Below, in pieces: positions 26,394 to 52,788 of a DNA stretch of 64,000 nucleotides. Origin of the DNA: Whitmania pigra. Its lineage: Eukaryota; Annelida; Clitellata; Hirudinida; Haemopidae. Numbering within the stretch: position 1 is the stretch's first letter; every line of letters starts with the position of its first letter. The notes under the pieces were generated by a model that saw nothing but the letters and a program-made list of their open reading frames with translations, was not told the DNA's origin and ran no database searches. The translations under genes and the position numbers were made by a program. The stretch is taken from the NCBI GenBank assembly GCA_021613335.1, contig JAJTWR010000088.1:84132-148131 (forward strand). The letters run 5' to 3'.

Positions 26394-29300
26394 TTATTTT
26401 ATTATTCTTATTACATTAAAAGATGATATACCCTGGTAAATGATGTCAGCATAATGGTCGACTCTAACAAAAAGGTTGTTTGAACAAATCAAGTTGTTGT
26501 CAAATTTCATGAAAGATATGGCAATTCCAACTTGTGTCCATATTCCGTTTTCATCTTTGCACACTAAAGGACCTCCACTGTCTTCCTGCATGTGGGAACA
26601 TTTAAACAAATTGCTTTAATTAAAACTCATGTCTTAAAATCAAGCATATTTATTAGTGAAATTATTATGATACCATGCAATTATTTATTTCAGTTGACGA
26701 AGGCACTGAACCGGCACATATTACATGATATTGATTTAATGAGGCTTCAAAATGAGGAATCTCAGAGCCCACTTGGCTGGACAGCTCGTTTTTGCATTCC
26801 TGAGTTGTCATCAGGTTCATTCTACCTTGCTGTAAGTGCTCTGTCGGAGAATTTTCTGAAATAATTTAAACGTTGCAATTTGATTTGATGAACTGCCTGA
26901 TATCACAAAAAGGGATGCTAAAACATTTCACAAACGTCGGTCAATATGCCCAAAACCAGTCATAATGCAATGCTGAAAAGACATCAACTCTGTATCCTCC
27001 AATATTCCGCTAGGCAAGCAAATTGGCCTGATAAATTGTGTAAAGACAATTGGCGACTTCAGTTTGATTAAGGCTACGTCATTTTCTTGATAGAAGGTTT
27101 TTGATCCATATTCAGGATGCTTAATAATGAAGGAAGCATACAATTTTTGTTGGTATGGATCGTTAAGCGTGACTGAACCAACTTTTACGTATACAAAATA
27201 TTTTACTGCATCCCTGCACAAAATAATGTAATAAGAACGTGTAAAGTCTGGACAATATCGCATCTTAATTAATGTTACTGACTGAAGGCAGTGAGCAGCT
27301 GTGAGAATCCAACTATCACTAATGATACTTCCTCCACAAATGTGTTGTCCTAAATGAAATATCTGAACATGCCATGGCCAAGCTCCTGGTTTTGCGTTTT
27401 TTCCGTTGATTATATATCTTCCGTAGTTTTCATATGTAGACTCGCTTGCACGTGTTCCGCAAAGACTTGACGAATTGACTTCTGCTTAATAAATGGTCAT
27501 TAAAAAAAATACTTTAGTTACACATTATATGAGAAGAAATTTGGAACAATATGTTTTAATTGCATAACATGGAATATTAAAAGATTATTATTAAAAAACA
27601 ATAAATTGTTAAAATATTTTAAATCGTGAGCCGTGTAGTTCAGTAGCTTTAAATGAAGAAAAAACATATTCTTACATTTCATTATAATATTTATTTTTAT
27701 TGAACATCAAACTGAAGGGCCCTTTAGACCACTAATACAAATCTGTACAATTTACACGCAAAAAGAACAACACAAGCTCCTAATGGCAAGGATAATCAGG
27801 TATATTTTAGGAAACTATTAAAGTCAAAGTCGCGTATTAGCACATTAAAACGAGAAATTGTATTTGAGTGTAAGACTATTATTATCTTTGCGTTAATATG
27901 ATAATGATAGTAATCGTAATGATAATTTTATCATTAAGGGAGCCATAAATAATGCATGGACCTTTTAAGGAGACTGATATTGAAATTAAATCAAGTTTAA
28001 AAATAAAGCAATTAATATTAAACTAGTTTAAATTTACCTTGTTTTTCGCACTGAATTTTTACGTATGTTTTGGAAATACAGCTAAATCTGCAAACAATAA
28101 ACTTTTATAATATAATTACATATAATATTGAAGCGATAAATATTAAAAATTGAACATTAAGTTAAATAATATAAAGAAATGAGAATCAATTCAGTTAACT
28201 GCAATAATATTATTGATATTTTACGAGACCAAAGAATTACAACTCTTTGCTAAAAGACTGCATGCTTGGTAAGTGATCCGCTGGATGCATGATTGTCAGG
28301 ACTTTATCTGGTGCTTCATCTAAGTGAGCATATTCTGTCGTCAAGTAAAGGCTGTTTGTCGATAAAAGAAGGTGTAGTTGAATTGCTGATGTTAATATTA
28401 TGGCTTAAGTCGAAATGCATGACTGAATTCTTAGATTTTTTATTTAATTTGTAATAATCAGTGTAAGTGTACTTTTTTATGATAATACCAAAAACACTGT
28501 CATAATTTGTATACCTTCTGTGTTGTCTACAAACACCATAACTGTAATCTAATTTCCAATTCTTTGAGCATACATAATATGAATTTCCTTCGTAAGTAGC
28601 CTTCAAGAATACACTACCCATATCCAAATTCACAGAAACTGCATAACAATGGTAAATAATTTGTTTAAATTATATTATGTAAAGTAAGGTTTCTCACAGC
28701 ATCCATGTTCATCAGATAAGTCAGGACAGTCGTATTGCCCGTCACAGCGCTCAGTTTTGGGGATGCAGTAATTTCTCTTAGCACATTTAAACATATTTCC
28801 TGGGCAAATTCCTTATTTAAAAGAAAATCTTTAAACGTCAGGGTTATTATGAAAAAGATTAATAATTAAATCGCCAAATAATTTACTGCAAGTAGGAGCT
28901 TCGTCTTCTGCATTCGGACAGTCGTCGGTACCGTCACATATCCAGTCTTGATGTATACAATCTCCTCCTCTACACTTATATTCGTCTGACAGACAGTCTG
29001 TATGATTTTTTTGTGTTTCAGTTGTTTCTGAAAAAATGTGTTGAGACTTTGTAAGGTTTGCTCAGGAGTTAAATTTCTTTAGAAATATTTAAATCTTAAA
29101 AATTGGTGGCCATGAGAAATATTCGGTGTTATTATATTCGGTATATTAGCATACTATCATAAAATGCCTTGTGGGCGTGTAATTTGTTCCTCGCAAATAT
29201 TAAATCGTCGCTGAATCAATTACAAACTATTGCTTCAACACTTTTGCAACCGTTCTCCGATGAGAAGCCAAAATATTTCAGTGAATTTATCGAGAGTTGC

Positions 29301-32300
29301 ACATTGAAGAAATAGTGATGGCATAACTAAACAATGGATCTTCATGAAATATGCATAAGTGACCGATGTCAAAAATACATTAAGTTAGACGACATAAATT
29401 AACATCATGTTATAAGGACATAAAAAAAGTCAGCCTTCAAGAATCGGAAACAGAATCAGGGAGAGCCCGAGAAAAAAAAAACCGATTCCTCAGCGGGTCC
29501 GTTAAAAACCGCGAAAAATTCAAGAATTAATTGAAGCCGAGAAAAATTGGTGTAGATTTCTAGACCTAAACTTAAATATAATGTAAGATAAATCTCGTAC
29601 TTTTCGCTTTTGCAAGACGAATTATAAAAATTTTGGCAATGACCAATTAACGATTTCGCTGCCAAATAATATTATTTTCTAATACAATTAATTTCTTCTA
29701 AGAAATTCAGTTGTATTTAACCTGTTGGATCTTCCTTGGAAAAAATCTCCACCTCGCATAGTATCAGCCATTTCTTTTTTTTTAAGCCGTGTTTCTTAAT
29801 CGTTACGTAAAGACCAAATAAGGGCTTCTTGCATGTTATCAGGGCAAAATTTTCTGAAATGCATCAAAGTAAGAATATTATCAACTGCGTTCATCTACAA
29901 AGTTCTATAAAAATAACTCAAAGTTTAACTTGATTGATGAAGCGATACATCGCACAATTTAAATGTTTAACTGGTTATCTCAGCGTACTCTTGCTTAATT
30001 TGGAAATAACATCTTATTTGGTTAAGTATAAAAATATAAAGAATATCACAGTGCTTTGGTAAATAAATTTTTAAAATTAAAAAAGTACAAATTGTTGAAA
30101 TATATTAAGTCGTACTTTGTAATTCAGTAGTTATATATGAAGCTAAACCACATTCGTACATCTCCTCATAACGGTAACCTTTGGAGATATATACGGCTAT
30201 TTGGCGATAGTCACTTTGCCCTGCAAATTTACGTTAGAAATTAAAAGTTATGCTGTACTGACAAAGAAGCATGAATTAACTTTGTAATTATTTAGCATAA
30301 CCTGGGATCCGGGAACTAGTAAGTTTTAGAGTAAGTTTATTAAGCAAGTATTCAGTTAACGGAACTGAATAATTGAAGGTAAGAGTTTAAGGAATTGAGG
30401 TACTTAGAAGATGCCAATGGATATTTGGGCTTCTAAGTTGTTTGGATTCTCGCTGAGTGTATGGTGAATATCGAGAAACTTTTCTGTAGAAATATTAGAT
30501 ACCACGTGCCAGACAAAGATACCAAATATAATGAATTATAAATTTAATTATTTTAGCAATATAAACTTAATTAATTTCTAAGTTTACAACAATATTTTGG
30601 GGCTCCGAAGATGGAGGATAGTTCAAATTATAGTTTTGTAAATACCTCACAATGAATCTTATATTGCATTCATTATCCCATGGTATCCAATATTCTAACA
30701 TTCCTATTTTCATAACTAATCATGCAAGCGATTATTACGCAATAGTTGTCACTAGAGTTATTACCAATATTACCAATAGGAATCGACCGGGGAGATAAGT
30801 TATTTTATTAACTTGGGATTGGTTTAGGTCTAGTGTCTACTTTTCTAATTAAATATTAATTAATTAATTGCACATTGCAAAGACAAAAATTATTATTTTT
30901 TAAACAAAAATATATCCAAAACAATTGCTGCGGTGACCTATTTCAGATCTCGACCAACTAGAATGAGCGCTTATGAGTTTATTAAAATAATATTTTAACC
31001 ATTATCATCGTATGCAAAACTTGACCAATTGAAATAATTCAATCTAGCCTGAGATGTTTGGTGTAAAATATACATTAACGTCGGTAATGTAGTAACTTCT
31101 ATCCAGAATTATAACCAGCCATGCAACTTCTTGGTTGTATACTGTTATTAAAGCACAAGATGTCAGGTTATTGTCGACTACCAATGCTGAACGTCTGTCG
31201 GACAACAAGCCGCTATGAAAAGTCGGCCTCTTAAAAGCCAGGTTTACTAAAATGTAATATTTTTGAATAAATTTTATTTAATCACTAATTTAACAGCCAT
31301 TTATTTTATATTGAATTAATTTTTTATATTACAAAATATAAACCGGTTTTCTTATCAGCATTTATAAAGATTTCACAAAGAACTAGCAAGTTCTTCCTTA
31401 TTCCTCCAATTCTTTTTATAGTAACAAACTGGCCGACTTTAGGTTCAACACAATTTAAATGAATATGGCCCGCTAAATGTTAAAATAAGATAATCATTTT
31501 AGGTTACAGAATATGCAAATTAGTAATTATTATGATTTATTTGTGACACGTGAATTTCTTTTAGGTGTAGGTTAACTTCTGAGAAGATGCATCATATTGT
31601 TAAAATAGCAGCATTATCAGTTTCGTAAAATATACTTCTTGCAATATTTAACATTAATTATCATTAAATCATAATGATTCTCAATTGTTTATTCTAATAT
31701 TATTTTAACCCACAAACTAACTTTTAATCTTAACAACCTAACTTTTAATCTTAACAACCTAACTGAATCTACAAAATGTATTTAAAGTGTTTTGAAGTAA
31801 AATTATTAAAGAATTAACACAAGGCAAATTGAAAAAAATAAACAAAGATTAAATTTCATCATAAGCATTCAGCTTTTTTTACAATGAAATTTAAGTATAT
31901 CAATGTTAACAAACCACGGACATCATCACATTTCCTAAAGCATTTATTTGAGCTCTCTGTTACATTAAAATATTCTAAATTCCATATTGGGCAAAAAATG
32001 AGCAGACCGTAAATGAACTCACTAGAATGTGGATGAAAGCGACGTTTAATAGAGTTGCACAACTGTTCTTCAAAATTATGAGAATCCTTTGAAATGTAGA
32101 CGTTCAAATTGTTCATGAAAACTATGAGAAAAATGAAAATTATGAGAATCCTTTGTAGACGTTCAAATAGTTTATCTTTATCATATAACAATTTTTTATT
32201 GCATTTGCATAAACTGATCAAAATTATATTAATACAATTGTATTCCTGAAAGGACGCATAGCATACCTGATTCGACTTAATGACTGTTATAATTATTTAC

Positions 32301-33705
32301 TAACTCTCTATTTATTCAGTTATACTTTACTCAATAGTACATTTATGCATCAATTTACTCTATCATGCATGGATACAATGCAGTTTACAAACATGTAAAT
32401 GGAAATATTAACAAACCTGAGAAATTAATGGCAAAGTTGATGCTCAGGTCAGTAATGTTGTAAAGTCTGTCGAGTTTTACGCGCCACCATGGATGTTCTG
32501 TCGATGATTCTCCTTCTGCAACAGAACATGTTTTCGTGTTGCCATCGATTGCAAGCCTTGACGTGGCATTTACAGCAGTTTTACTCTGATATGTCCTAGA
32601 ATTAACTAGGTTTACTGAAAATTAAAAAGGTCAATCGTATAGTTCTCCGTAGTCCAACGTCATTAAATTTATTTTATATCTAGTTAAACTAAGAAATATA
32701 TGTTTAGAAATTTGTCATGCTTTAATAAAAAGTTTAAAATGGTAATCATAAAACTATTTTTAATAATTTTATTAATTTTAAAAATGGGTAAACATAAATT
32801 AACATTTAGTATTGATAATAAGTAGTGATTTGGATGGCATATTAACCCATATATGTCTGGCTTCAGTTTAACCTATATCCTGTTGGCGTCAGTTTAAACT
32901 GACGTTGGTAAAACATTGGATTTCTGGACAATGATTAACTCAATCCATTTTGTTAAATTTTAAGTTTATTCGGTAGATACCAATGATGTCTTAAATCACA
33001 TTTTCGTGAAGTTTAAATTGAAGGCCGCATTGGACCATCCAGAGCACTCAGCAATGCTGTGCTGCACCTGGATTGCAAGGGTCCTTGCATGCCAGAAATG
33101 AAATGTTGGGTTGCATCCAGGTTGTTCCAAAGCATACCGTTATAATTACGTTGAACTGAATTTAGGTGACGACATTTGGTGATTTTCTAAACATTTTATA
33201 ATGTACTAATATATATACTATATATATATATATATTATATATATTATTAATAAAATATTAATTAAAAAAACATTACATTTAAACAATAAACATCAAATTT
33301 ACTTGTTTGTTCGTTAAATTAAGTTTTGTAATTGTCAAATCATAAATAACTGCCGTAGAATTTTTTTAGAAATTTTTTGTATTGTAGAATGATTTATACC
33401 GTAAAAGAAAAACACCCTATCCTTCGCGGTTGGCGTCAGTTTAAACTGCTGGTCACATTTCTGAACACACTGGGCAGAGTTTGGCAATTAAATGTTTTAA
33501 AATATTTATTACATTGTTTTCATGTCTAGAGCGATGCAATTAATTACATAAAATTATAAAGTTTCGTTTTCTTTTGCTTAATTAATTTTGAATGTTAAGT
33601 TTTTAATGTTTCCTGAAAAAAAAACCAACAACATAGTTCAGACTTACCGCTCACAAATGATGCTTGCCCAACTGCTAATAAAATAACGCATAGCGCGCCC
33701 AACAT
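26394..33705 (-). CDS. FTP-FTP-LDLa-LDLa-SRCR-trypsin mosaic protease, gene 1 (Gly193Glu)
   Basis: Sixteen exons: 33648-33705, 32417-32614, 32023-32121, 31344-31472, 31049-31246, 30116-30220, 29722-29853, 28887-29027, 28698-28811, 28515-28638, 28244-28351, 28038-28087, 27283-27481, 26936-27213, 26674-26855, 26394-26585; 768 aa, frame closed. Signal peptide MLGALCVILLAVGQA; fucolectin-type (FTP) domains about 20-161 and 162-306, each with a WW or WL strand and an L(V/I)LCEV end; LDLa at about 310-352 and 355-390; SRCR-like 391-485; S1 domain 486-768. His549 (LTAAHC), Asp in NDVALIKL and Ser708 are present, but the active-site loop reads CMEDSGGP: Glu replaces the oxyanion-hole Gly193. Secreted; probably weakly active or inactive. 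Exon 5 ends in a GC donor. Confidence 0.92.
27690..27865 (-). mobile_element. LINE 3' end
   Basis: Minus strand reads TISRFNVLIRDFDFNSFLKY then stop, followed by a 3' UTR with ggcccttcagtttgatg. Same family as 39255-41030 and 62600-62885. It lies in intron 12 of the protease gene. Confidence 0.7.
29030..29720. other. Long intron, nothing recognised
   Basis: Intron between FTP2 and the first LDLa of gene 1. A 69-codon open minus-strand frame at 29456-29665 has no recognisable domain. Confidence 0.4.
32887..32904. repeat. 18-bp perfect palindrome, repeated once
   Basis: cgtcagtttaaactgacg, inside intron 1 of gene 1. The 20-mer gttggcgtcagtttaaactg occurs here (32882-32901) and again at 33429-33448. 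It could mark ends of a small transposon, but no target duplication was found. Confidence 0.5.
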
Positions 33706-33770
33706 TTTTATTTACTAAACTTCATTAACTAAAGCATTAGCAGCAATAACAGACATGATATAATCGATGT

Positions 33771-35776: not shown

Positions 35777-38700
35777 CTATATGGGTTGTATCTGATTTGA
35801 TCCTAACGACAAATAATGCCACTCAATACCTCTGTAAATCTCGTCTAAATAATGGTCGACTCTAAGAAAGAGGTTGTTTGAGCAAATCACGTTGGTGTCA
35901 AACTTTAAAAAAGATTTAGCAATTCCAACTTGTGTCCATATTCCGTTTTCATTTTTGCACACTAAAGCACTGCCACTATCTCCCTGCATTAAAACTCATG
36001 TTTTGTAATTATTTACAAGTTACTACATTATAAATGTCATTAATTAATTAAAATTAAAATTATCATGATACCCGACAATTATTTATTCCATTTGTTGAAG
36101 GAACTGAACCGGCACATATCATTTTGTATTGATTTAGTGAGCCTGTATATAAATTACTGCTTTTAAAGCCCGCTTGTCTGGAAAGCTCTTTGCCGCAATC
36201 GAGATTTGTCATCAGGTTCATTCTACCTTGCTGTAAGTGATCCGGTCGAGAATTTTCTAAAATATTTTAAATTTTGCAATTTGATTTAGAACTGCTTGAT
36301 ATTACAGTATCAACATCATCTAATACGTTTCACAAACTTCGGTCAATGTGGCCAAAACCAGTCATCACGCAATGACGAAAAGACATCAACTTTGTATCAT
36401 CCAAGATTCCTTGAGGCAAGCAAATTGGCCTAATAAATTGTGAATAGATAATTGGCGACTCCAGCTTGATTAAGGCTACATCGTTTTCTTGAAAGAAAGA
36501 TTTTGGTGCATATTCAGGATGGTTAATAATGAAAGAGGCATAAATCTTTTTCTCGTGAGGATCATTAAGTACAACAGAACCAACTTTTACGAATAAGTAT
36601 GATATTGCTATATTCCTGCTTAAATTAATGTAAGAATATGTAAAATCTGAGCTTTTTTTAAATTTAATTGTTGTGGCGGACTAACTGAAGACAATGCGCT
36701 GCTGTGAGAATCCACTGTTCACTAATAATACTTCCTCCACAGATGTGTTCTCCGTAGTGGAATATCTGAACATGCCATGGCCAAGCTCCTGGTCTTGCGT
36801 TTTCTCCACTTATTATATATTTTCCGTAATTGTCAGATGGAAACTCGTTTCCACGTGTACCGCAAATACTTGATGTTTCTGTGCAATCAATTGTAACATT
36901 TGTGAAAAATAATGAGTATGATTTATCAAGTAATAAAGCAAAAATCACTTTAATTAGACATTTCGGCACGACATATTTTTAATTGCATAACACAGAAATT
37001 GACTTTTAATATGATGACATTCCCTAAACGTGGTATCACATATGATGCTAAGGTTATTTCATTAACCTTTTAAAGTTTATTGATATTGATTTTGAACGCA
37101 TTTCCTTGTAATTGTAATATGTTTAAAAATGTAAGCACATAAAACGTAACTAAACGGTGACAAAGTACTGGCGATTGAAGGAACAGGCAGAACAACATTA
37201 TGGTAATGATATTGAATTAAACTAAGTCAGCGGTTCTCAACCTTTCTGACGCCGCGACCCCCCAGGCAGCACTGCAACCAACAACAAAATTGATTGGACT
37301 AATTCACTCAATAAAATTCATTGTCGCTATTATGCCTTTCACGTTTAAATAATAGAAAATTTTGTTTAAATAAAACCCGAGACATATTGTAATGTTTCTA
37401 ATTTATTTTATAATATTATTTATGTTTTTAAACATTGGAACATTTTCAGAGAGGTGGTTGTGCTTGCTAAATTCAATATGGCAACAACCATCAAACGAGA
37501 GATCATCTACTCAGAGATGAACACAACCTTATCATATACATTTCATTTCCACAATGTACAATATCAAATCGTCTTGCTCAAAAATGACCTGGGTAAAGGT
37601 TATGTGAAAAATGTCTTTTACAAATATTTTTTTAAATATATCTTAAATTCTCAGCGACGTAGGGCGAACTCCGGCAAATCGTTAGGCGATTCCCAAGGGG
37701 GTCACAACCCACAGGTTGAGTACAGCTGGTCTAAGAGAAGCAAACAAAAATTATGCAGAAATCTCATGGCCTCTGCTACTATTGATACAAACATAAATAA
37801 ATTCAAGTCATAAAATGAAATAATTAATAATCATCTAATTTAAATTTACTTTGTTTTTCACATTGAATTTTAACGTATGATTTGGATTGACAGCTAAATC
37901 TGCATAAATCATTATTTAAGCAATAAGGATCAACAGACTAAGATAGACACAAACAATATTAAGTTAAATAATAATAATTAATGGAATTTAATTCAGGTTA
38001 ACATCAGTTACATTACAAAATATTATTCATAGTTTATAATGCAAAAAAAATACAACCCTGGACTGAAAGAATGCATGCCGGGCAATTGATCCACCCTATG
38101 TATAATATTCAAAGCTTTGTCTGATGTCAAATTAAGTTCGTGGTATTCTGTCGCCAAATGAAATCTGTCAACAAAAATCATGTAATTATAATTTAATAAG
38201 CAATAATAATAATCAACTATAAGATGAAATGTTTGATTTTTATGCTGCAACAACTAATTTGTAGGGTAGGACAATTATGAATTCTTCTGGGTTTTTTCAA
38301 AAGATTATTATAAGTACTTTTTTTAATAAATTATTTTGTCACTTATACTTGTTCAAAAATAGTATCAACGCACTGCCAAATTCATAATTATGTACCTTCT
38401 ATGTTGACTACAAACATCATAACTGTATTCTATTTTCCAATTCTGTGAACATACATGATATAAATCTCCTTTGTATGTTGCTTTCAGGAATTCACTTTCC
38501 AAACCCAAGTTCACAAAAACTGTATGAAAATGCTACATAATTTATTTAAAATAAGTTACGAAAAGTTTTTTTTTTCTCACAACATCCTTGCTCGTCAGAA
38601 AAGTCGGGACAATCGCTATGTCCATCACATCGCAGAGCATTGGCGATGCAAACATCTCTCCTTGCACATTTAAAATCAATCGCTTCGCATCGTCCTTATT

Positions 38701-41700
38701 TAAATGAGCAACTTTGTTAGTAGGAGTTGTTATGGTAAATGTTATTAATATTTAAATGGTTATTAATAACAAATTCTTGCGAGCATCTATACCTCGAACT
38801 TCTAATTGAAAGCATAAGCACTCGGTGCCCATATAAATGTAAATTGGCAAAGTTTCAGAACTGAACATCTAAACTATCGATAAATCACATATTTCTCATA
38901 AAACTAAATTTTTTAAATGTTAATTATCACGGTAAAGTTCGTTAATATTTTAATAGATATACAAATTACTGCATGAAGGGGCTTCGTCGTCTCCGCTTGG
39001 GCAATCAGTGGTGCCATCGCACAACCACTCTTTATGTATGCACTGTCCTTCATGACACTTGTATTCATGAGCAAGACATTCTTTAGGAACTTCAGGGCTT
39101 GTCACTTTTAAAAATGTTTTTCAAAATTACAAGGCATTGGTTTGCTCAGGATGTAAATTTACATCGCATTTTTTTCTGATGGCGCACTTAAAAATAGCCT
39201 CAGAATTTTTTGCAGAAAAAGATTTCAGTGTTTTTATTGAGATATTTTATCTTATTTATAATTTTTTTATTTATTAGACACAATTGAAGGATCCAGTTGG
39301 ACCACTAACACAATTGCAAAAACAAAAGCATCGACCGACGTGTACACAAAGGCAGCATATAAATTAAATGTAATTTAAGTAATGACTAAAGTCGAGGTCA
39401 CGTATCATTGCGTTTAAACGGGAGACCTTGGTTGAATCAATGACATCACCAATTCAATGCATTCCATGGCTTTGCAATTCTATTGCAAAAAGCGAATTTA
39501 ACACAGTTTGTGAAATAATTATTTTGCTTAAGTTTAAGACAGTGTCCTTTTGTATGGTTTTGAGCAAAAAGGGAGTGTATTAAGAATGAGTTAATAAAGC
39601 CATGTATTATTTAAAACAAAGTGTGAAATCAGCCAGCAATTGGAAGTTTGAGCAACCTTAGTTTCTTTGTATATGGATACGATTCCAGGAATAGAATTGA
39701 CTTAATGTATTGCCTTTGAACACTTTCTATTGTATCGATTAAATATTTGTGATGAGGATTCCAGACCGGGGCATGGAGGTTAGCAAAATGGGTTACATGC
39801 CTGAATACGGCGGTAATGGCAACAGTCGTAAAGTCGTGTTCGAAACCCAGCCTGCACTGCTGCCAGCGCTCTTGGGAAGGATCGCTATACAAATGGTTAC
39901 AGGAAGCGCCTCTGACGCTATGCATATGGAACCATATAAATAAAATTACAATTACCATTACAATTACTGTTGAGCCATACTCAAGTATTGGCCTAACATA
40001 GGTACAGAAGGCCAGCTTTAGAATATCCTTATCTTTGGAAGCAAAGGACGATCAGATCATCCAGAAGATTGTAGCAGCTCTTTTAGTGATGGCTTCAATG
40101 TGTAAGTCAAATTTCAGCTATGGGTCCATTATAAACCCTAGATCTCTGATCTTATCGACACGCTGTAGGACATGCCTGTCAATGAAATATTCATGGGAAC
40201 CTCCTGTCTTTGCCTCCTGTTACAGAGAAAACATGACATTTGTCAGGCGCAGGTTGTAGGTGCCATATGTCACTCCACTGGGCCACTGTGTCAAGAGCAA
40301 ATTGTAGCTGGGTTTGACAGAATCCGTTCCTACTATAAAGTTTGCGTCATCAGCGAAAAGCTTGCAAACAACATTTGAAGTCCTGAGCAGGCCAGCCAGA
40401 CCATTTGTGTAGAGCAAGAACAGAGTTGGCCCAAACACTACCCTGGGTAACACCACCGGAGCAGTTCTAGTTCAAAAGCTGCATAGTGTTTCTTAATGGC
40501 TTTGCTACATGCTTTAGCAATGTTGTTGTTTTGTCCTCGCCATTGTTACTTCGTTTCCAAATTCTCCAAAGCCTCGATTTTGTTTGCAAAAGCTGGTTGG
40601 TTTGCGGGGGGGGGGGGGGTATATTTTCCGCCCATATTTGAATACTGTTGCTGAAAATTTTGGGACAAATCGTTCAAAAGCCACTCCCACCTGATATTTG
40701 AACTCCTGTCTACATTTATCCACTATGGGACAAAACTGAAAAAGAAAAATTCCAGTTTATCCCCTGTAAATATTTATTGAGCATCAGATAATCAGCTTTC
40801 CTGAAGTTGTGTGATGTGGATGGACCGCCTGATTAGACCAGTCCGATGGAGCATTTGGTCTGAAGCCGATGACGTTGTGATCACTATTTGAAATTGGGCA
40901 TAACGTTTCTATTCTGGTGATAAACTGAGAGTCATTTGAATCAAGCATATTTTCATGTCTTGTTGGAGTTGTAACAAATTTTTGAAATCCGAAGTCATTA
41001 AAAAAATTTCAGAAACATATTGTATATTCTAATATTCGGAGCAGTGTTTTGAGACCAGGTCTTAGATGGTAAACTAAAGTCCCTAAACTAAACTAAAGGA
41101 TACAAACTGTATGTTTAACAGAGCAGAGGTGATGTAAACAATCAATACTTAACATAACATAACATAACATAACAATTATTTATAGTGGTTAAGAAGACCT
41201 GGATCTGTGTAATAACCACTCTTTTTAGTCCTAATATCCGAATTTACTTAAATAAATTTTGAATTTATCTATTGTGTCAGCATGGATGGTTTCCTTATCT
41301 AGTTTATTCCATAAGGAAACCACCCTTGAACTGAAATAATTGTTTTTCAAGTTTCCGAAGCTTCCTGTATAATTTACAATCGTGCCCTCTAGTAGAAAAC
41401 TTTTTGTGGCTTCGAAAAACTGTTCAGGCAAAAGGCCTTCCCTTCCCGATAAAATTTTGAATGCCTCGATGAGGTCCCCTCTATTTCTTCTCTTTTCCAG
41501 AGTCGTTAATTTACATCTATTTAATCTTTCCTCGTAACTAAGCTTTCAAAACCATCTATCATCCTGGTTGCCCTTCTTTGTACTCTTTCCAACATCTCTA
41601 CATCCTTCCTCAAATGAGGGTTCCATACTTGCACACAGTACTCAAGGTGTGGCCTTACTAATGCCTTATACAATCTCAGTATTACATCCTTGTTCCTGCT

Positions 41701-44700
41701 TACTTTCAACTGCATAATTCTCAGCGCTAAAGTCAAAACCTCCGCTGTGGCCTTCTGGTGTTCATTCAATTTCTTGAGGGAATACTTTGACAAACCATCT
41801 GTTTTTGTTTTTAGCACAATAGTAGCCTGATGGTGTTCATCCCATTTTTTCTTGGAGTCTTTTGTCACATCATCAATCTTGGACTTTGACCCATTAATCT
41901 CCTCCTTCTTGTTCCTACAAAGACGCCATAATGTACTCGTTCCTCTTCAGAATGGTCTTCAATACCAGAATTTCCTTGTTAATTTCAGTCAACTCTTGCT
42001 TGTCTATCACACCCAACGCCTTCAAACTTTTTTTCATTTTCCTTAAAATAACATTCACACCACCGCCATCCGAAAATTTCTGAGGCCGGAATAAATTATC
42101 TTAAAGTACTGACGTGATTTATCGTTTGCGCAATAGATGTTCTCGGTGATTTAAGTGCTTACGATTACAAGGAGAGAGCTTTCACAAATATATTAAGATT
42201 TCCGAGGAAAGGAGAATGCTGGAGAGTAGTAGAGTCATAAAAATTCAGAATTATTCAATATAATACTAATGTAAAGTGCAATATAAATATATAATTTAAT
42301 GTAATTGTAATGCATTTACAAACAACAAAATATAATCAATATAATTATTTTATTTTCTGAATTCTAATTAACCTATTGGGTCATCCTTTGAAAAGATCTC
42401 CAGTTCACATAGTATTAGCCATTTCTTTCTTATCCCGTGTTTCTTAACGGTTACATAAAGACCAAATGTAGGCTTCTCGCACGTTACGACGACAAAATTT
42501 TCTGATTGATTTGATTAATGTTATCATCAATGTAAGAATATTATCATGCTTTCACATCCTCAAAAACCGCTTCGAAATTAATTCTTATGTAAACTTAATT
42601 TTTTTAACTTAAGAGCAATAATTTTAATTTCATTATTTTTAAAACTTTGTAATTTAATTCATTCTCTCACAATGTTCTTGCTTAATTCACATATCACATC
42701 ATTTGTGGAAAACCATAAAAATATCAGAGCTACAAGAAAATTGAAGTATTAGTTTAAAGAAACGGCAAGAAATGTTACCATCATATTTTTCGTTGTTTTT
42801 AAATAAAGAATAGCCACACTTGTGCTCTTCGTAATATTGGTAATCATTGGAAATATAAACGACGATATGGCGGTAGTCACCATGCCCTGCACAACGGCAA
42901 TATTTAAAAACAATAATTCAATAATCATTATAAATAAAGTTTTTTAAATGTCTACAAAAGTATTATTTTATTAAATGTCTAAAAAAGTATTATTTCAACC
43001 AATATCATCGAACGATTGACCAATTGCAAAAAAATGAAATAATTCAGTCTTGCCTGATACGTTTGGCATAAAGTATGCATTAACATCGGTAATGTAGTAA
43101 CTTCTCGCCAGCATTACAAGCAGCCATGCCACATCTTCTTTATAAGCTGCTATCACAGCACACGTTGTGACGTTGTTATCCACTGCATACGCTGATCTGG
43201 TCTCGAACAACAGACCGCTAGGTATAGTTGGCCTTTCAAAAGCCAGATTAACTAAAATGAATTAATTTTAAAAATGTATTTTCTGTATGTTCTGTATTTG
43301 TGTTTAAAGAATTTAATTTAATTTACTAATTTTTAATTTCTTTTTATTGTAAAATATAAACCGGTTTTCTTGTCAGCGCTCAAAAGGACTTCACAAAGAA
43401 CTAGCAAGTTCTTTCTCATTCCTCCAATTCTTTTTATAGTAACAAATTGACCACTTTTGGGTTCAACACATTTCAATTGGATTAGGCCAGCTAAAAAAAT
43501 TAAGTTATTCATTTTCAAATAATTATTAACTAATTATTATTTTTATAAATATTCATAAAGGTAGTAAAAACAATTAATGTTACACAAGTCACCGAGAGGA
43601 CCATCAACAGAAATGTGTAATCTCTGTGTTATGTCACTTTGCTAATGAAAAATAACATTGTACAATTGTAGTACAATTTTAATAGTGTAAAACAAGGGCG
43701 TGCCCCTAAAAAAAATATAGGCTCCTTGATGTGTAATATTAATTTACTCGTTCTATGATTTATGCAGTATTTGATTCTAATATTAAAGAGTATAATATAA
43801 ATTTTGAAAATGTTATAAGTTTAAAAGAAATAAATCAGTTTTACTTAATACAAGTTACACTTTAGACAATTTATAGGCATTTTAGATTAGGAGAGTGCAA
43901 AAAAGTCATTGTTTATAATGGCCACGGCAATTGCAATAATTAGTTATTAATTATTATTTTTGTGTCTGAATTTCGTTAATAATAATAATAATAATAATCT
44001 TTTACGAAAAAAACGATCAATAAATGATCTCACAAGAAAGTGATTGGTCGGGACCTTGAAAAGAAATGCAAAGCTGCTCTTCAAAATTCTCAGAATCCTT
44101 TGAAATGTAGACGTTCAAATTGTTCATGAAATCTTTATCTAAAAACAAAAATATTAAATAAAATAACAATTATAGAAATATATTTGAATTCCTGTTAGGT
44201 TTTGTATCTCGTTTGAGACGTTTTATTTTTATAAGATAAACATAATTAAAAAATTATTTTAAATATTGATTTACACTTGATCCACTTGTTCACCCATTCA
44301 GCCATTATTCAATCGCTCATCCATTCTTTAACTCATCCAGATTTTCATTTAGCCATTCATCTTTTAACACAGAAATGTAAACAAACAAGATGAATCAAAG
44401 TTAATGCTCAAGTCAGTAATGTTGTAAAGTCTGTCGAGTTTTATGCGCCACCAAGGATTTTCTGTCGATTCTTGTCCTATAACAGAACATGTTTCCGTCT
44501 TGCCATCGATTGCCATCCTGGAAGTGTCATTTGTGGAAGTTTGACTTTGATAAGTCGTAGAATTAATGAGGTTTACTGAAAGTTAAAGAGAAATCATACA
44601 GTTCAAAATAAAACATCTCTGATCTGTCGCGATCGTTGTTGAATAATATTTCCATATACATATTGTTAATTATAAAATTACGCTTATTAATAGACTAAAT

Positions 44701-44831
44701 CAGCATTTCAAATTGATCCAAAATCGATGAATTAAAAAAAGATCATTAGGTATTTAAAAAGTTTTAAACTTACTTTCTAAAAAAGATGCTTGTCGAACTG
44801 CTAATATAACAACACACACTACACCCAACAT
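35777..44831 (-). CDS. FTP-FTP-LDLa-LDLa-SRCR-trypsin mosaic protease, gene 2 (full triad)
   Basis: Sixteen exons: 44774-44831, 44387-44575, 44034-44138, 43362-43490, 43054-43251, 42779-42886, 42373-42501, 38970-39104, 38581-38694, 38396-38519, 38057-38164, 37850-37899, 36686-36878, 36338-36615, 36072-36256, 35777-35983; 769 aa, frame closed. Signal peptide [18 protein letters not shown]1 to about 160, FTP2 161-305, LDLa 306-350 and 351-388 (CDGxxDCPxxDDE type, calcium-binding acidic residues kept), SRCR-like 389-482, S1 483-769. Triad His544 (LTAAHC), Asp592 (NDVALIKL), Ser704 (CRGDSGSAL), so predicted active. Residue 189 is Asn, not the Asp of trypsin, so specificity is uncertain. The expected cleavage precedes IISGENA and follows GKY. 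Secreted. The large 39.1-42.4 kb intron is filled with LINEs. Closest relative is gene 1. Confidence 0.93.
37228..37728. mobile_element. SPIN/Charlie-like hAT MITE
   Basis: Left end CAGCGGTTCTCAACCTTTCT followed by gacgccgcgaccccc; right end inverted CAGCTGTACTCAACCTGTGG followed by gttgtgaccccc. From memory, this terminus pattern is that of the SPIN/hAT-Charlie group. The flanking 8-mers aactaagt and gtctaaga share ctaag, an eroded target duplication. No transposase. In an intron of gene 2. Confidence 0.75.
39255..41030 (-). mobile_element. LINE (endonuclease plus reverse transcriptase), decayed
   Basis: Minus-strand endonuclease part at about 40750-41000 reads [16 protein letters not shown] and [15 protein letters not shown] part: [16 protein letters not shown] and [10 protein letters not shown], with the catalytic FADD at about 40346-40357; then [12 protein letters not shown] (about 39975) and [20 protein letters not shown] (about 39665-39770), split by a SINE at 39770-39962. 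The C-terminus [18 protein letters not shown] ends at about 39370, followed by a 3' UTR. CR1/Jockey-like; frame breaks throughout. Confidence 0.8.
39770..39962 (+). repeat. tRNA-derived SINE
   Basis: A-box-like gttagcaaaatgggttac and B-box gtgttcgaaaccc, then a body gcgctcttgggaaggatcgc ... gcctctgacgctatgcatatgg and a ttacaattaccattacaatt tail. Another copy is at 53985-54172 (minus). It interrupts the LINE reverse transcriptase, so it is younger than that LINE. Confidence 0.8.
41150..41900 (-). mobile_element. CR1-like LINE 3' part
   Basis: Minus strand: [20 protein letters not shown], then [19 protein letters not shown], then [40 protein letters not shown] and [10 protein letters not shown], the standard C-terminus of CR1-type RT. 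It ends in an (AACAT)n tail at 41151-41175. One or two frame changes. Confidence 0.85.
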
Positions 44832-44872
44832 ATTTATGTACTGTGTCGTTTGCGACAATTATAGATACGTTG

Positions 44873-44893: not shown

Positions 44894-45522
44894 TGAAGTC
44901 ACTTTTCAACCGGGATAAATTGTTTTAAAGATAAAGTTTCCAGGTCGATTAAAAATCTTAACGATTAAATAAAGTTCATATATTATACAATCAACAATGA
45001 TTAACTTACACATTAATCAGTAAAACTTTATTAGCAACATTTTTGCTTGGAATACGTAAATTTTATTTAAACTATCGTTTTAAATTTTCAATTTTTTAAT
45101 TTATTATTTATCCTTTGAGATTTTATCTTGAGATAGTTGATGAATAGTTTTTAGAAATTATTCCAAATTCAATTCCATTTTATCAATTGACAATTATAGC
45201 AAATTTAATGAACTTTATTTCAAGAACATTCTAGCTAATAATGAAATACAAACTATAGGATATTAAAATACTCAGTTCAAGAAATTTAAAAACTAACTTA
45301 ATTTTTAGACCTTTTAATGCGAAGTATGAATTTAATAATTTTGAGAATCAGACTAATAAAACATTTGCAAAAATAGTGCAGTACTACTCAAAGTCATAAG
45401 AGATGTCAAGGTTTCCGCAATCGAGAAGGTTCGAGAAGCTGTGCCATGAGAAGGGGTATCGCTGCTCGATTGAGGATTGATTACTATTGAAGCAATAAGA
45501 AGTGATATTTTCACCGATTAAT

Positions 45523-48500
45523 TTAGTTAAAAATATAAAACTTAAAGTAAAAATTGTCACCTGAATCAATTAATTGTAGATCATCATCAATTCTAGTAAA
45601 GAAATTGTTTGCGCAATTTATTCCAGTAAGATCGATACCAGCAGCAACGCCAACCTGGATCCATGCTCCATCACCGCCTTTGCATACAAGTGGACTTCCA
45701 CTATCGCCCTGTAAAATAAACAGGAATTTATTTCATATTACATTCCAATTGCAAGACAACTGACAACACATAAATTAATTCCAGATTCAGAAAACACAGC
45801 TCCACCACAGAGAAATTCGTTGGTTTTCAATAATTTAGAAGCGGAATGATAATTTCTATCTTCCAACATTTGAGAGCAATGGTTAGTCGATATGAGATTC
45901 ATACGTCCTTGCATCAAAAACATGGATTCTGTTCGTTCTTGAAAAAATATTGAAAACACTTACATGGAACAAAATATGGATTTAAACTAAAAAAAATCGG
46001 TATACCTCTGTCAATGTTTCCAAAACCACTCGCAACGCAATGGCGATAAGACCTCAATGTTTTGTAATCCAGTTTTTCATTCGGTAGACAGATTGGTCGG
46101 ACCAAATTTGTAAATTTTATCGGTGGCTCAATTTTAATTAAAGCCATGTTTTTTACAAAATTTGTAGCTTCGTATTTTGGATGCATAATAATTTGGGACA
46201 CTGGAAGAAGGTCAACCCTTGGATCATTCTTGTAATTTGTTCCAACTTTAATAAATATTTCCGAGACACGTGATACGTCGCTAAAAAGTTCAGCAACTTT
46301 GATCATTATTATAGCATAACGTCAAATGTGTTTACAGTGGTTAAAAAAATAACGTCTGTCTACTAAAACCATTTCTTTGAGGATTAAGCAGCAGTACAAC
46401 ACTGGTTTGGGATAAAATGTAAATAATACATCAGAAAGTTACTTAAAATGAGGAAATACTTTGATTGTATTTTTATTAGTTATTCAATATTTTAATATTG
46501 AAAAAAAAAACTTGTGGAACATACTCTAAACATGCAGCCGAGGTGAGTACCCATTCTTTATCTAAAATACTTCCTCCACATTTGTACAATTTGTTAACAA
46601 TTAGCTGGACATGCCAAGGCCAAGCACCTTCTAATGCGACATTTCCGTTGATGATGTAAGGTCCAACTTCGTTGTAAGGAAGTCCTCTTGTTCCACAAAA
46701 TCCTGTGTACTCTGTACATCATGATAAGCCATACATTTATTTTTAGTTGTAGTGTTGAGTTATGGTTGTGAAGGACATTGTTTTTATTAATATTATCAAT
46801 CTAAGAAGTACATTTTTATTTACAACTATTAATAAATTTATTAACAAATTTTTAATTAACCAGTCGAGTTTTGATCCGAGCATTCAATTTTTACATATTC
46901 TTCCGGAACACAAAAAGAAGTGGGACTGTTTTAAGACATAGTTTATCATTAACGCTTAAACACATTTTTTAAAGCTGATTTAAATTTGTAACAGCTATTC
47001 AATCAAATTAAGACCTATGCGTAAAAGATTTGATTCCCGGTATCTCGTTCTTATCATTTTTGTCAGTTAGCAACATCAATATTCTTGATGGACTTGACGA
47101 GATCTTCCCAGAGTACGATTTTTCAAAAAAGCTGTGAATAAATTATTTATTCAAATTAATATTTAGCTATTAATAACTTGATAATAGAAATTAACCTCTG
47201 GAAGTGTTGTTTGCAGACAAGAGCACTGAATTCCGGCAGCCAATTCCTCGAACACATGTACAAGAACATGTCGCCTCTGAACTTTGACATAAGAAAGTTA
47301 TCTTTCAAAGTGACTGAAATTAAAGTTCTTCCAAACGCTTAAGCATTCCAATAATAACCAAAAGCATTTCTGATTTTAAAAACCCTGAAAAAGTGATCAT
47401 ACAGCATCCGTCCTCGTCGCTAAAATCTGGACACTCTACGTCACCGTCACAACGATCAGCGTTGTCGATGCACATTTTAAATCTCCTACATTTGAAATTT
47501 CCCTCTTCGCAGCCTGTTTAATATGCACACAATGTGTTAATGAACTTTAATTTTAATGAATTGAGAACATTGCATTAATATTGCAATTGAGAACATTGAA
47601 TTGAACCAATTTAATTAATATTGAATAAGTCATTATTCACCACATTCTTCGTCTTCGTCATCTCCCAATGTACAGTCTTTTGTACCATCGCACAACCAAT
47701 CTTTCGATATGCAATGCCCTTCTTTGCACTTGTATTCGTCTGGTAGACATGCTTCAACGCGATAATAAATATTCTCATGATTTTATTTGAAGAATTTATT
47801 AAGTGAGAGTTTTTGTTGACTCTATGGTTGTTGCAAGTATTCAATTATTTTAACAGGTTTTTTTTAAACAACAGACCCTCTTGTACGACACCCCGTCATA
47901 ACAACCCGGCGACAAAATAGCCCCGACAAAATAGCCCCGTCAAATCAGCCCTGTCACCAGGGTCGGACTGGCTTAAAAAACCGGCCCGGGAAATTTTATT
48001 TAACTCCTAGTTTGATCAACTTAAACACTAGAGTCTAAAATTTCTATTCACTATTAACTATTATAACAGCTTTTTCATCGTTTCACTAGTCGATGCTAAA
48101 ACATCAATGATTTCATTGTTATTGATTCTTGGAAAAGAGTCTTTCTCACAAGACATCAGCATGAATGATCGTAGAATTGACAGGTTCAGAAAATTTCTTT
48201 TCAAAATAAGTTCAAAACGTATTTCAATTTTGAAAACGACCTCTCACAAGCAACTTGTGATGAGGATAATGTCAACACAAATTTGTAAGCCAGATACAAA
48301 TTTGAATAAGCAAGACTATGCAAATTAAATTTCTCGAGAACAATAATAACAACAAACAATACATATTTTGCAAAATTTGCATTTATTTCTGTGGTTGTTG
48401 CTGTTTTCAACTGTTGGAATAGTAAATATATTTTCAAGTAATTCTACTGATTCAGATTGTTGAAATTAATTTTATCAAATGTCAACGGAAAAGTAGTTAA

Positions 48501-51500
48501 AAATAGTTACTAACTACTTTTTTTATAAAAGCATAAAAGTATAAAACTATTTGCACTAATTTCGAATTAAATTTTGATTCAGTGTCACAACATTTAAAAA
48601 AAATACTTTGACATGGGGCTATTTTGTCGGGGCTATTTTGACGCCGGGCTATTTTGACGGGGCTGTTTTGTCAAGGCTATTCTGTCGCCGGGTTGTTATG
48701 ACGGGTCACCCCTCGTGTACATATTCTCAACTTTGATATTTAAACATGTTTTATAAAATTTTAACTTTAACTATTTTACTTGTATTTTTCCAACAATAAA
48801 GCAAATGCTGCAAACGTTTAAAAGCTTCAAAAAAGATCAGGCAAATAAAACTAACAACAATTTAATTCATCACTGCCATCAGGACACTGCTTTATTCTGT
48901 CGCATGTTTGATTTGAAGGCAAACAACTTGACAGGATTTCGCATTTATGCTCTGTAGCTTCACAATCTTAATAAAAAATATCGAATTCATTTTTGAACAC
49001 ATCTAGGAAGCTTTCATTATACTTTCAAACACACGTAAATTCAGTGTTGTGCAGTATCGAATTACATGTAATTCGTTACTGTAATTAATTACATTTTTTG
49101 GTAATTTTTACTAGTAACAGTTAAAAAAAATTTTTTTTACTTTTACTTGTAACAAATTACTATTTTCGGTCATACTTTTAATTCGTTACCTTTTTGGCGC
49201 AAGACGTTACAAAGTAACATAAATAAAATTTTAAATTAGTTTATTTTATTTTAAAACTTTACTAAAATTCTAGATTGTTATTCTTTGGTTCGATCGAAAA
49301 CCTTCTTTCCGATCATCGCTCATTTGTTATTGTGGTTATCGCCGGTCGTTTTTGTTAAATCGGAAATTGTTGATTAATCATACCAAAGCTTTTTAATATA
49401 TAATATTGTATGTATATAATAATATAAGATTTAATATATCGTAGTATGGATTCATTTGAAGCCAGTTTGAGTGTCGTTAGCGAAGATAAGAAGAACAAGC
49501 GTGAAGATAGTCCGTGGCCGTATTTAAACAAAATGTTCAGATTTCAATCAAAGGAAAATCATATAAGTATGCATGCCTACTCAGCCAACAGAAAAAAAAC
49601 TATGTTCAGCATATGAAGGTTCTTCATCTAACTTGAAGAAGCACGTGGAACGCATGCACCCAACAGAAGTTAAGGAATATGGGATATCTGTTGCCAACGG
49701 TTGTCAAGCTTCATGAGAAACTGGTAGCCAAAATAGCATCTTCTAATGCAGCAATGGAGGACGAGCTGAAAGCATCTCATTCATCTGATGCTGACAGTGT
49801 TGAAGATAGTTTCTTCAATTGCACAAGGTCAACTGATATTCTGATGCAGTATCTTCAAGACCGATCAGATGACATGAACATTATTTATCCAGTTGAACGC
49901 TCCTCTGCCAGCTAGTGCAGCTGTTGAACGTTTATTCAGCTATGCTGGTATGAACAGCCGAAGGACCACAATGAGTGATAAACTATTCGAGGACTTAGTT
50001 ATGTTAAAAATTAACAAATGTTTGTGATTGTAATAAATAATAAAAACACCAAAAGAATGCATTAATTCAAATGTTATTACTTAATGACTGTTAATACTAG
50101 CAGTTAATACCAATAATTGTTTTAACGTTAATAGAAACAATTCCTTTTAAATAATACGGAATGATGTATGGTCACAATAATGGCGGCATCAAAGTTACTT
50201 GTAATTTTTACTTAAAAGTAACTTTTGGATGCGGTAACTTTTTACTTTTAATTGAGTAACTTTTTAAGACAATACTCTTACTTATACTTAAGTAGCTTTT
50301 TGAGCTATTACTTTTACTTGTAACTAGTTATCGAAATGAGGTAACTTTTACAACACTGCGTAAATTCGCATGAATAATTAAATAATTCGCTCAAATGATA
50401 GAATACTACCTGATGGCCAAGATGCGATGAAAACCTGGACCTCACAAAGTGTCAACCATTGCTGTCTTCTCCCCCCAAATTTCTTAATAGTTACATACTT
50501 ACCTTGCATGGCTTTGTTATGCTTTACTACTACGCCTGGTGAATCTTGTTTGCATAGTATATCTACTGAGCCGCCTAGATGTTATTAAATATACTTATGA
50601 TTTACGATCGTTATGATTCACGATCGTTATGATTCAAAGAAAACAAACTGAGCGGAACCTAATGATATTTAATAGCCTGAGGTAGCACAAACAAACTTTG
50701 AAAATGAAAAACAAAATGCAGCAAAATTAATGGAATTATCGAGCTTTGTGGATGCAAATATTAAAAGTAAACAAACTTTTAATGTCTTCATTGGTCGGCA
50801 TTGTAAATGATGCACATAAGTGTTGTTCGAAGTTTGTATTGTCGTTGGACACAAACACATTAAAGTAGCCAAATGTTAAACCATCTATGAATAATATATT
50901 TATTTCTAATGATATTTCAAATTACTTTAATTCAAATCATGAATTAATTTGTTAAAATCAAGATTTGTATTTAAAACAACAGTAAATTTCAAAATAAAAC
51001 TTTTGCAATATTTATTCTAACCTAACATGGTTTTACAGCTCATAATTGAAATTAGTAACATACCTGGTGTATTTGGTTTAAATATTATGTTTACTCCTGA
51101 GATGTAAAAAGTGCGCTCAAGTGCCACACGCCACCACCCAAAATTATCACCGTCAGCTTTGACTTTGCCACATGTGTCTTTGTATCCATCAACTGCTAGG
51201 TTTGACATTTCATTGAATAGCGTACCACTTTGAAATGTTGGTCTGTTATATGCCAGGCTAACTAAAATTATCTTCAAATTTATTTTTAATAATAGAAAGT
51301 CTGTTTATCAATTCAAATTTATGATGTCATAAATTATTATGTTTAAATATATTGATGAGTAATTCATATCGACTGATGCCATGATAAATTAATGACTGCT
51401 ATTATAATAACTTAATAATGTCCATACCAGTATCAATATCGGAGTAAACTTTAACTTCACAAAGCATTAGTATTCTGGTCGATCTCCCACTCTTTTTTAT

Positions 51501-52788
51501 TGTGACATAATTTCCAATAAGAGGTTGCACACATTTTGCCGTTACATAAAGTTCTAAATAACAATCAATTTATTATAAATATATTTAAATTATTAGAACT
51601 ACATTCAGTTAAAACGGTGTGATAGTTATTAGTGGGCAGTCCCTTGTTCCATAGTCATTCAAAATACTCTTTTAATTCCTGTAACAACTAAAATATCTGA
51701 CATCTCTGGATTCAAGCACATTTAATTTGTTGTGCTATACTTATTCATTTAAACATTTTATTATTCAGCAATTTGTCATATCTACAGATTGATTTTTGAA
51801 AAAAATTACTGTTTTAAATTCTATTTAATGAAACGGACTTCAGTAATGACATTTCTTTCACCGCTTATTCAATTACAGCAAATTTCATTGAGGATCCAAT
51901 AAATTGCTAAACAGAAATTTTATGGTAACATAAACATCTGTAATTCTCTAATTATCTTTAATGCATTCTCATCGGTTACAAGGGCCGGTTTAGACTGCGT
52001 ATTCTAAATATTTACCAACATCTATATCACAATATTCTCTAACAACATGACAAAAAAGTCATTTACCTGAACTAATATTCCGATATTCAGGAACATGATT
52101 GCAAAATGTTTGCAGTGATATCTGACCATTTCGCGAAATGTAAACATCTATTTGATTCAGATAATCAGCAGCATCTGTGCACAACAATTATTCTAATAGC
52201 AAGCTTTCATGGCATTTTTTTTTTAAATTTAAGTTATTTATTTAGAAATTATCATTTAAAGGGTCGTACATGAATTATTGGCACCGAAAGCGACATTGAC
52301 GTGGATCACCTCGTATACTCCGTCGAGTTCGCCTTTCCACCAGGGGTCTTCAATTGAGTTCATTCCACTGGCAGAAATTGAACAAGTTTCGACATTGTCG
52401 TCTATTGCTAAACTTGAGTCGGCACTCAAAATGGTTTTACTTTGTGATGTCGCATTTTTATGCACATAATTAACTAAAAGTATTACGTTTAATGTCAAAA
52501 AATTGAAAACTTATGATAATTCTGCATTTGATAAATGTTTTACTGTAATAATGATAATGATAACAATAACAATAATAATAGTAATGATGATAATAATAAT
52601 AATAATATTTTGCAAATGATAATATTTTATTGTAATTACACAAACACAAAAATAATTTATATTTAAATCATGGAATTATAATTCTTTTGAAAATACTAAT
52701 TTAAAGATAACTCACCTTTCAATAAGGACGCTGTTTCGGTGATAATAATAATGATAATAATGATACAATGTGATATATATACATTCAT
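45523..52788 (-). CDS. FTP-FTP-LDLa(3)-SRCR-S1 protease homologue, gene 3 (catalytically dead)
   Basis: Seventeen exons: 52716-52788, 52270-52473, 52067-52174, 51428-51553, 51064-51261, 50777-50884, 50410-50574, 48856-48966, 47641-47751, 47403-47513, 47196-47313, 47015-47131, 46861-46925, 46525-46711, 46006-46280, 45765-45937, 45523-45708; 811 aa, frame closed. Signal peptide [19 protein letters not shown]1 25-170, FTP2 171-327, LDLa 328-364, 365-401 and 402-438, SRCR-like 439-538, S1 539-811. Active-site changes: LTSAAC in place of LTAAHC (Ala598 for His57) and KNMALIKI in place of NDVALIKI (Met646 for Asp102), while GDSG (Ser753) remains. Predicted non-catalytic cofactor or decoy, as known for other serine protease homologues. 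Two hAT elements sit in its introns. Confidence 0.92.
47887..48711. mobile_element. Composite hAT-type element, third copy
   Basis: Ends gacaccccgtcataac and ttatgacgggtcaccc; flanking ctcttgtac and ctcgtgtac match at 8 of 9 positions. The core holds, on the minus strand (48201-48437), NLYLAYKFVLTLSSSQVACE then RSFSKLKYVLNLF, the hAT dimerisation end, open in this copy. Core sequence is closely similar to 11200-11680. In an intron of gene 3. Confidence 0.82.
49042..50358 (+). mobile_element. hAT element (BED/Tol2-like) with transposase remnants
   Basis: Terminal CAGTGTTGT at both ends (inverted), perfect 8-bp duplication cgtaaatt (49034-49041 and 50359-50366), and subterminal repeats of taacttttac type. 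The plus strand keeps a BED-finger end (SSNLKKHVERMHPTEV, about 49620-49670) and the C-terminal PLPASAAVERLFSYAGM then SRRTTMSDKLFEDLVMLKIN (about 49900-50025). The catalytic middle is deleted. In the intron between FTP2 and LDLa of gene 3. Confidence 0.9.

Follow-up and report, generated by a model that had tools for sequence, protein, structure and literature searches.

The question raised by this locus is whether one gene can join lectin-like heads to a protease tail and, if so, what kind of function the joined protein would have. The locus lies in a stretch of 64,000 nucleotides from Whitmania pigra (Annelida; Hirudinida), contig JAJTWR010000088.1, positions 84,132 to 148,131, called the window in the following. 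Three neighbouring minus-strand genes, g1, g2 and g3, occupy its middle part, with the outer ends, 26394 and 52788, that an earlier note on the same DNA had given. Their common order is signal peptide, two fucolectin-type (FTP) domains, two or three LDLa modules, an SRCR-like part and an S1 protease domain, and the earlier note had described them as a trio of lectin-headed, possibly glycan-triggered proteases. Its observation is confirmed; its interpretation is partly supported and appears half right. By sequence comparison, g1, g2 and g3 are predicted to be members of a lineage-specific, tandemly expanded family with perhaps fifty clustered genes, in which recognition proteases would stand beside pseudoproteases.

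When splice sites are picked by generic consensus and homology, each of the three genes closes as one reading frame with a single stop: g1 (33705-26394) in 16 exons and 765 amino acids, g2 (44831-35777) in 16 exons and 769 amino acids, and g3 (52788-45523) in 17 exons and 811 amino acids. The ends and frames proposed earlier are thereby recovered, as are the lengths of g2 and g3; for g1 the 768 amino acids claimed become 765. The exon borders are AG/GT with compatible phases, except for two GC donors. These define a GC-AG intron at an equivalent place in g1 (31049) and g2 (43054), behind the exon that opens the second FTP domain, where g3 has GT. By Pfam, each gene has two F5_F8_type_C_2 stretches (the heads match PF22633/PF00754); LDLa modules number two in g1, two in g2 and three in g3, and Trypsin matches with E values of 3.3e-45 (g1), 3.7e-44 (g2) and 2.1e-37 (g3). 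Of the proposed domain order, FTP, LDLa and trypsin are in this way supported by domain search. The SRCR-like part is weak: PF15494 (SRCR_2) matches with E values of 0.041 in g1 and 0.0072 in g2, both below the curated cut-off, and Pfam lists no SRCR_2 match for g3, where the part is assigned by position. Residues 343-724 of g2, the one gene compared in this respect, match TMPRSS2 and enteropeptidase from the LDLa modules through the SRCR-like part into S1. Run over the entire window, profiles of the family's exons returned three exon sets, those of g1, g2 and g3, and three small remnants. The features are, in window coordinates:

26394-33705, minus strand: gene g1, signal peptide-FTP-FTP-LDLa-LDLa-SRCR-like-S1; H57, D102 and S195 kept, Gly193 replaced by Glu (exon chain, Pfam, S1 alignment)
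33648-33705, minus strand: g1 signal-peptide exon (exon chain)
31344-32614, minus strand: g1 first FTP domain, exons 32614-32417, 32121-32023 and 31472-31344 (exon chain, Pfam)
29722-31246, minus strand: g1 second FTP domain, exons 31246-31049 (followed by the GC donor), 30220-30116 and 29853-29722 (exon chain)
28698-29027, minus strand: g1 LDLa, two exons (exon chain, Pfam)
28038-28638, minus strand: g1 SRCR-like module, three exons (exon chain, sub-threshold Pfam)
26394-27481, minus strand: g1 S1 domain, four exons, activation site Tyr-Ile-Ile-Asn-Gly (exon chain, Pfam, S1 alignment)
35777-44831, minus strand: gene g2, architecture as g1, catalytic triad intact (exon chain, Pfam, S1 alignment)
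42373-44575, minus strand: g2 two FTP domains, six exons, GC donor placed as in g1 (exon chain)
37850-39104, minus strand: g2 two LDLa exons and three SRCR-like exons (exon chain, Pfam, structure-sequence match)
35777-36878, minus strand: g2 S1 domain, four exons (exon chain, S1 alignment)
45523-52788, minus strand: gene g3, three LDLa modules, S1 homologue without H57 and D102 (exon chain, Pfam, S1 alignment)
50410-52473, minus strand: g3 two FTP domains, six exons (exon chain, Pfam)
46861-48966, minus strand: g3 three LDLa exons and three SRCR-like exons (exon chain, Pfam, family profiles)
45523-46711, minus strand: g3 predicted S1 pseudoprotease, four exons (exon chain, S1 alignment)
58072-58125, minus strand: family LDLa-exon remnant (family profile, 18.9 bits)
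59338-59520, plus strand: remnant of a first FTP exon of the family (family profile, 38.8 bits)
23643-23723, minus strand: possible remnant of a second protease exon, weak (family profile, 12.6 bits)

The size of the family was estimated with one 57-residue first protease exon as query against the genome to which the window belongs (178 Mb in 381 contigs), all 93 of 93 candidates being scored. There are 84 matches, and 57 of them reach at least 57 bits, a threshold of our own choice below which the next match has 56.3 bits. Contig C18 carries 36 of the 57, C74 12, C271 three, C48 (the contig of the window) three, C245 two and C100 one; two of the 57 have a stop codon inside the exon. Three pairs of matches have equal score and identity (C18/C271 twice, C18/C74 once), and each pair may represent a single gene met twice, on contigs that overlap or are allelic; the estimate therefore becomes about 50-54 places, family membership outside the stretches read being defined by the first protease exon alone. 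The equal pairs also suggest overlap among C18, C74, C271 and C245, or else an allelic relation within one cluster of more than 0.6 Mb.

The first 200,000 bases of C18 (190 kb readable, 10,000 bases unreadable) were scanned with the exon profiles, which recover the complete set of four protease exons in 19 units. In 17 of the 19, the protease is preceded by one or more FTP heads, LDLa and an SRCR-like exon, in this order; the two exceptions are c18_067, with an FTP remnant only, and c18_197, truncated by the end of the stretch. One unit, c18_090, has a single FTP head, the middle FTP exon was not found in several heads, and two fragmentary sets at 24-28 kb, which have no first protease exon, were excluded from the 19. 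Farther along C18, past 200 kb, an FTP profile search gave ten matches, each 3.4-6.0 kb upstream of a protease exon as judged by eye. Three sampled stretches, from C74 and C18:325001-335000, add four units: three carry heads and repeat this order (in one of them the first head is truncated by the edge of the stretch), and one, lying at an edge, is without its heads. Since the exon order recurs in 17 of 19 units beyond the window, the architecture of g1, g2 and g3 is more than chance.

To see how heads and tail could nevertheless be unrelated, consider a separate FTP gene next to a separate LDLa-SRCR-S1 gene, the two being fused by the gene model. The tail can exist alone, as it does without FTP in the protein-database relatives P0125, P0147 and P0150, and the intron between FTP and LDLa in g2 is long (3.3 kb). 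Against two genes stands, firstly, that the gap between FTP and LDLa is only 92-288 bp in 16 of 17 C18 units (1,849 bp in c18_028), with compatible phase-1 borders at the junction. Secondly, when a signal-exon candidate is defined as a signal-peptide-like exon ending in phase 1, judged by hydrophobicity, such a candidate occurs before FTP in 14 of 18 units, 107-248 bp upstream of the first FTP exon hit (control: 23 of 284 random stretches), and none occurs in the FTP-LDLa gap of any of the 17 C18 units or of g1, g2 and g3. From candidates before FTP and their absence between FTP and LDLa follows that FTP and S1 are predicted to share one gene, as the earlier note had proposed, and we regard two fused neighbours as extremely unlikely.

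The tails are unusual S1 domains. They were compared by aligning 22 units, three from the window and 19 from C18, with a canonical S1 domain (P0026), and by reading four further units by eye. The residue before Ile16 is Tyr in 21 of the 22 and His in one; it is Tyr in all four further units and hence in 25 of 26. At position 189 the aligned units have Asn (18), Thr (three) or, in c18_061, Ile (by eye), and the further units have Asn, which gives Asn in 22 of 26 and trypsin's Asp189 in none. Work on insects takes Phe, Tyr or Leu at the place of the activation bond as a site for chymotrypsin-like proteases, in the passage of PMC10036332 that treats it. The triad H57/D102/S195 is intact in 16 of the 22 aligned units and three of the four further ones (19 of 26 overall). 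It is lost in g3, c18_000, c18_028, c18_054, c18_067 and c18_076, and the losses among the 22 require at least four changes when placed on a rapidly built protease tree with 25 rows. Residue 193 is other than Gly in five of the 21 units of the 22 where it can be read; it is Gly in g2, in g3 and in the four further units. In the window, the triad is intact in g2 and kept in g1, which has Glu at 193, and Ala and Asn replace H57 and D102 in g3, which is therefore predicted to be a pseudoprotease. With 57 strong exon matches in the genome and a pseudoprotease among the three, the phrase 'trio of proteases' was wrong on two counts.

The heads resemble F-type lectins such as AAA and FBP32 in profile, in sequence and in their tandem arrangement. 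For one C18 head, the nearest protein of solved structure is FBP32 (3cqo), a fucolectin from fish, with an E value of 6.6e-06 for the whole sequence, single stretches being weak. This match, the agreement of the heads with PF22633/PF00754 and the strict cation motif h2DGx, present in 24 of 41 heads, favour the idea behind the earlier note's glycan-triggered protease, namely a protease to which fucose-binding F-type lectins are fused. The residues of the fucose site count against it. When 41 family heads, six of them from the window, are aligned with FBP32, the place of H52 has His in no head (a gap in 24), the place of R79 has Arg in one, and the place of R86 has Arg or Lys in none (a gap in five). 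Not one of the 41 heads has the full triad H52/R79/R86, in an alignment where some heads are gapped at these positions, and the family differs from F-type lectins in this as well as in the fusion of its heads to a protease. 'Lectin-headed' in the sense of fucose binding is thus not supported, and a fucose-triggered protease is improbable. A passage of the review PMC5712786 gives the fucose motif as HX24RXDX4(R/K) and allows that F-type lectin domains off this motif may have other specificities or no sugar recognition; the main text of that review is without the words 'protease', 'trypsin' and 'LDL'. Judged by eye along an entropy line for 20 inner heads, variability seems highest in the loops around the former fucose site.

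How the copies have evolved was followed by the ratio of nonsynonymous to synonymous substitution (dN/dS) per domain in seven close pairs, which yielded 30 finite values and four cells without a finite value. In 29 of the 30, dN/dS is 0.14-0.46, and selection on the family is thus mostly purifying. For the dead proteases it is 0.29 (c18_028/067) and 0.23 (c18_028/054). An alternative, diversifying selection acting on FTP domains as a whole, finds no support in these values. The synonymous rate is uneven along the pair c18_104/109, 0.07 in the outer FTP domain and 0.98 in S1, a pattern expected from gene conversion or exchange. The FTP heads of c18_054 are nearest to those of c18_061 (64 and 70% identity), and its S1 domain is nearest to that of c18_028, with 71% identity versus 43% to c18_061. 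Trees reject both alternatives for c18_054 with approximately unbiased (AU) p values of 3e-33, 0.0025 and 0.0048; the test was chosen after the identity table, which leaves out c18_067 and c18_197, had been seen, so that these are not p values for a clade named beforehand. With heads that go with c18_061 and a tail that goes with c18_028, c18_054 is on this evidence a head/tail chimera produced by recombination.

Where such a protein came from was approached by protein searches with g2 (best 120 of 204 matches), a family profile (25) and P0125 (85), the candidates being limited by shared words and length. No protein among the matches listed has an F5/8-type C domain together with a Trypsin domain, and no description of FTP joined to LDLa-SRCR-S1 was found in the open-licence PubMed Central literature; within that literature and the listed homologues, the earlier statement that no described family joins them stands. 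The top protein match of g2, a Ciona savignyi polyserase, shares only LDLa and S1. In P0150, P0125 and P0147 the order LDLa-SRCR-S1 is combined with Tyr-Ile-Ile-Asn-Gly and, by eye, with Asn at the place of residue 189, and there is no FTP head; the identity of P0125 is 31% over 61% of the first query sequence. As FTP-less proteins have the same odd S1 domain, the protease tail seems to be older than the fusion.

Among known systems, the group of enteropeptidase, TMPRSS2-TMPRSS3 and corin has the same LDLa-SRCR-S1 order, and among solved matches only LDLa-rich LRP2 entries rank above enteropeptidase and TMPRSS2. These type II transmembrane proteases have, as a rule, Arg or Lys before the activation bond and Asp189. 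The present family differs in its signal-peptide-like start, its FTP heads, its Tyr in place of Arg/Lys and its lack of Asp189; a cytoplasmic tail with a transmembrane anchor before the stem was, by hydrophobicity, not seen in g1, g2 and g3, where a short hydrophobic exon stands directly before FTP, as do the candidates in 14 of 18 units. ModSP and HP14 are alike in having LDLa repeats followed by a C-terminal S1 domain. The Drosophila ModSP is described, in a part of PMC10732536, as self-activating with PGRP-SA, GNBP1 and peptidoglycan, and as chymoelastase-like; an account within PMC10036332 gives the ModSP/HP14 order as LDLa-CCP-Wonton-S1. These insect proteins lack FTP and SRCR, and Pfam finds no CCP (Sushi) match in g1, g2 or g3 at E values up to 1. 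Modular serine proteases have few genes per species. In the complement pathway of lectins and MASP, recognition is linked to a zymogen through two separate polypeptides, with CUB-EGF-CCP modules; the logic is alike, and homology does not go beyond S1. Factor C of the horseshoe crab has a Phe-Ile activation bond and EGF, CCP, LCCL and C-type lectin modules, and is without FTP or LDLa. It is a zymogen, self-activated by lipopolysaccharide according to a section of PMC10179214. On our best reading, by analogy, the family may work like ModSP or factor C without belonging to either.

A recognition-triggered protease is in our view the likeliest kind of function. In full, the family of g1, g2 and g3 would consist of secreted mosaic zymogens, most of which have two or three FTP heads, along with two or three LDLa modules; some would be recognition proteases and others pseudoproteases, and a setting in defence or self/non-self discrimination is judged likeliest. 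The reading as a whole is given a confidence that falls a little short of an even chance. The FTP heads would bind some surface ligand other than fucose, whereby the zymogens become concentrated. Active members, with an S1 pocket that lacks Asp189, could then cleave the shared Tyr-Ile bond of their neighbours in a self-type or chymotrypsin-type activation, and mutual activation would give a local proteolytic response. Pseudoproteases such as g3 would keep their heads and might act as decoys, scaffolds or cofactors. A family of secreted proteases with a non-immune job, such as matrix turnover, egg-coat/sperm interaction or feeding and digestion, where FTP domains serve as anchors in matrix or mucus, is a serious possibility, held with less than even confidence. 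Many animals show tandem expansion of S1 genes that serve digestion and reproduction, and heads off the fucose motif may, as the passage of PMC5712786 allows, differ in specificity or lack sugar recognition. Against this possibility stand the dead proteases that are kept, with the dN/dS of 0.23-0.29 given above. Two to three FTP heads with LDLa and SRCR would, moreover, be unusual in digestive enzymes.

Several observations weigh against zymogens triggered by recognition. Residues 214-216 and 226 are not conserved in the family, residue 226 being aligned to a gap in 22 of 22 units. They shape the substrate cleft in classical S1 enzymes, so that even members with an intact triad may be weak or odd enzymes, and Gly193 is lacking in five of the 16 triad-intact members of the aligned set. 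One outer-FTP pair has a dN/dS of 0.99, calculated from few changes. Two of the five outside relatives examined, P0148 and P0149, which are relatives of P0125, have no Tyr-Ile at the activation site. In g3 the opening exon, which codes for a poly-Ile stretch, is uncertain, and only 12 of the 17 C18 models have a frame that stays open up to one stop at its end. As a side observation, the putative signal peptide of g3 (52716-52788, minus strand) has a run of eight Ile from a simple repeat of ATT/ATC type. The five other C18 models are c18_028 and c18_122, each with an extra stop at a model exon junction; c18_000 and c18_090, out of frame because SRCR exons two and three were not found; and c18_188 (C18:188492-194422), where the frame is not kept across the last protease intron, at the codon of residue 193, which may reflect a pseudogene, an odd splice site or an assembly error. 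Together with the fragmentary sets at C18 24-28 kb, the remnants that flank g1, g2 and g3 and the stops in two of 57 exon matches, these five models are what an array in decay would offer, with most copies pseudogenes and the family without function. The 12 clean models and a dN/dS below 0.5 in 29 of 30 finite comparisons make such decay highly unlikely.

Other features of the window and the assembly lie apart from the family. An open reading frame of 225 amino acids, with an RNA recognition motif (PF00076; Pfam, first copy scanned), occurs twice on the plus strand (56866-57543 and 63236-63913), 6,370 bases apart, and a 300-base stretch overlapping both copies has 97% identity. The long intron of g2 contains transposon-like open reading frames (41231-41946, minus strand) that by eye we take to be reverse-transcriptase-like; Pfam gave only a DTW match below threshold, for one of them. 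A hAT transposase dimerisation region (PF05699) lies at 17116-17475 on the plus strand. Contig C115 has a coxB-coxA operon of alphaproteobacterial type at the best of four COX1-family matches in the assembly, and a prokaryote-genome scan with this COX1 gave records from Alphaproteobacteria and other bacteria (best 80 of 593). From the bacterial type of the operon follows that the assembly contains bacterial sequence.

Returning to recognition-triggered zymogens, a stronger form would be a repertoire of about fifty genes that exchange heads and tails, where the shared Tyr-Ile bond lets any active member activate any other and dead members tune the response; in this form the proposal is doubtful. 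What the comparisons suggest for the family is that an LDLa-SRCR-S1 line gained F-type-like heads, grew to perhaps fifty clustered genes and retains dead members on which selection acts. Provided that the heads sense ligands, this would be a new case of recognition and proteolysis in a single polypeptide. If the stronger form is true, Whitmania pigra would have an innate recognition system coded in proteases, outside complement, coagulation and the Toll cascades of insects.

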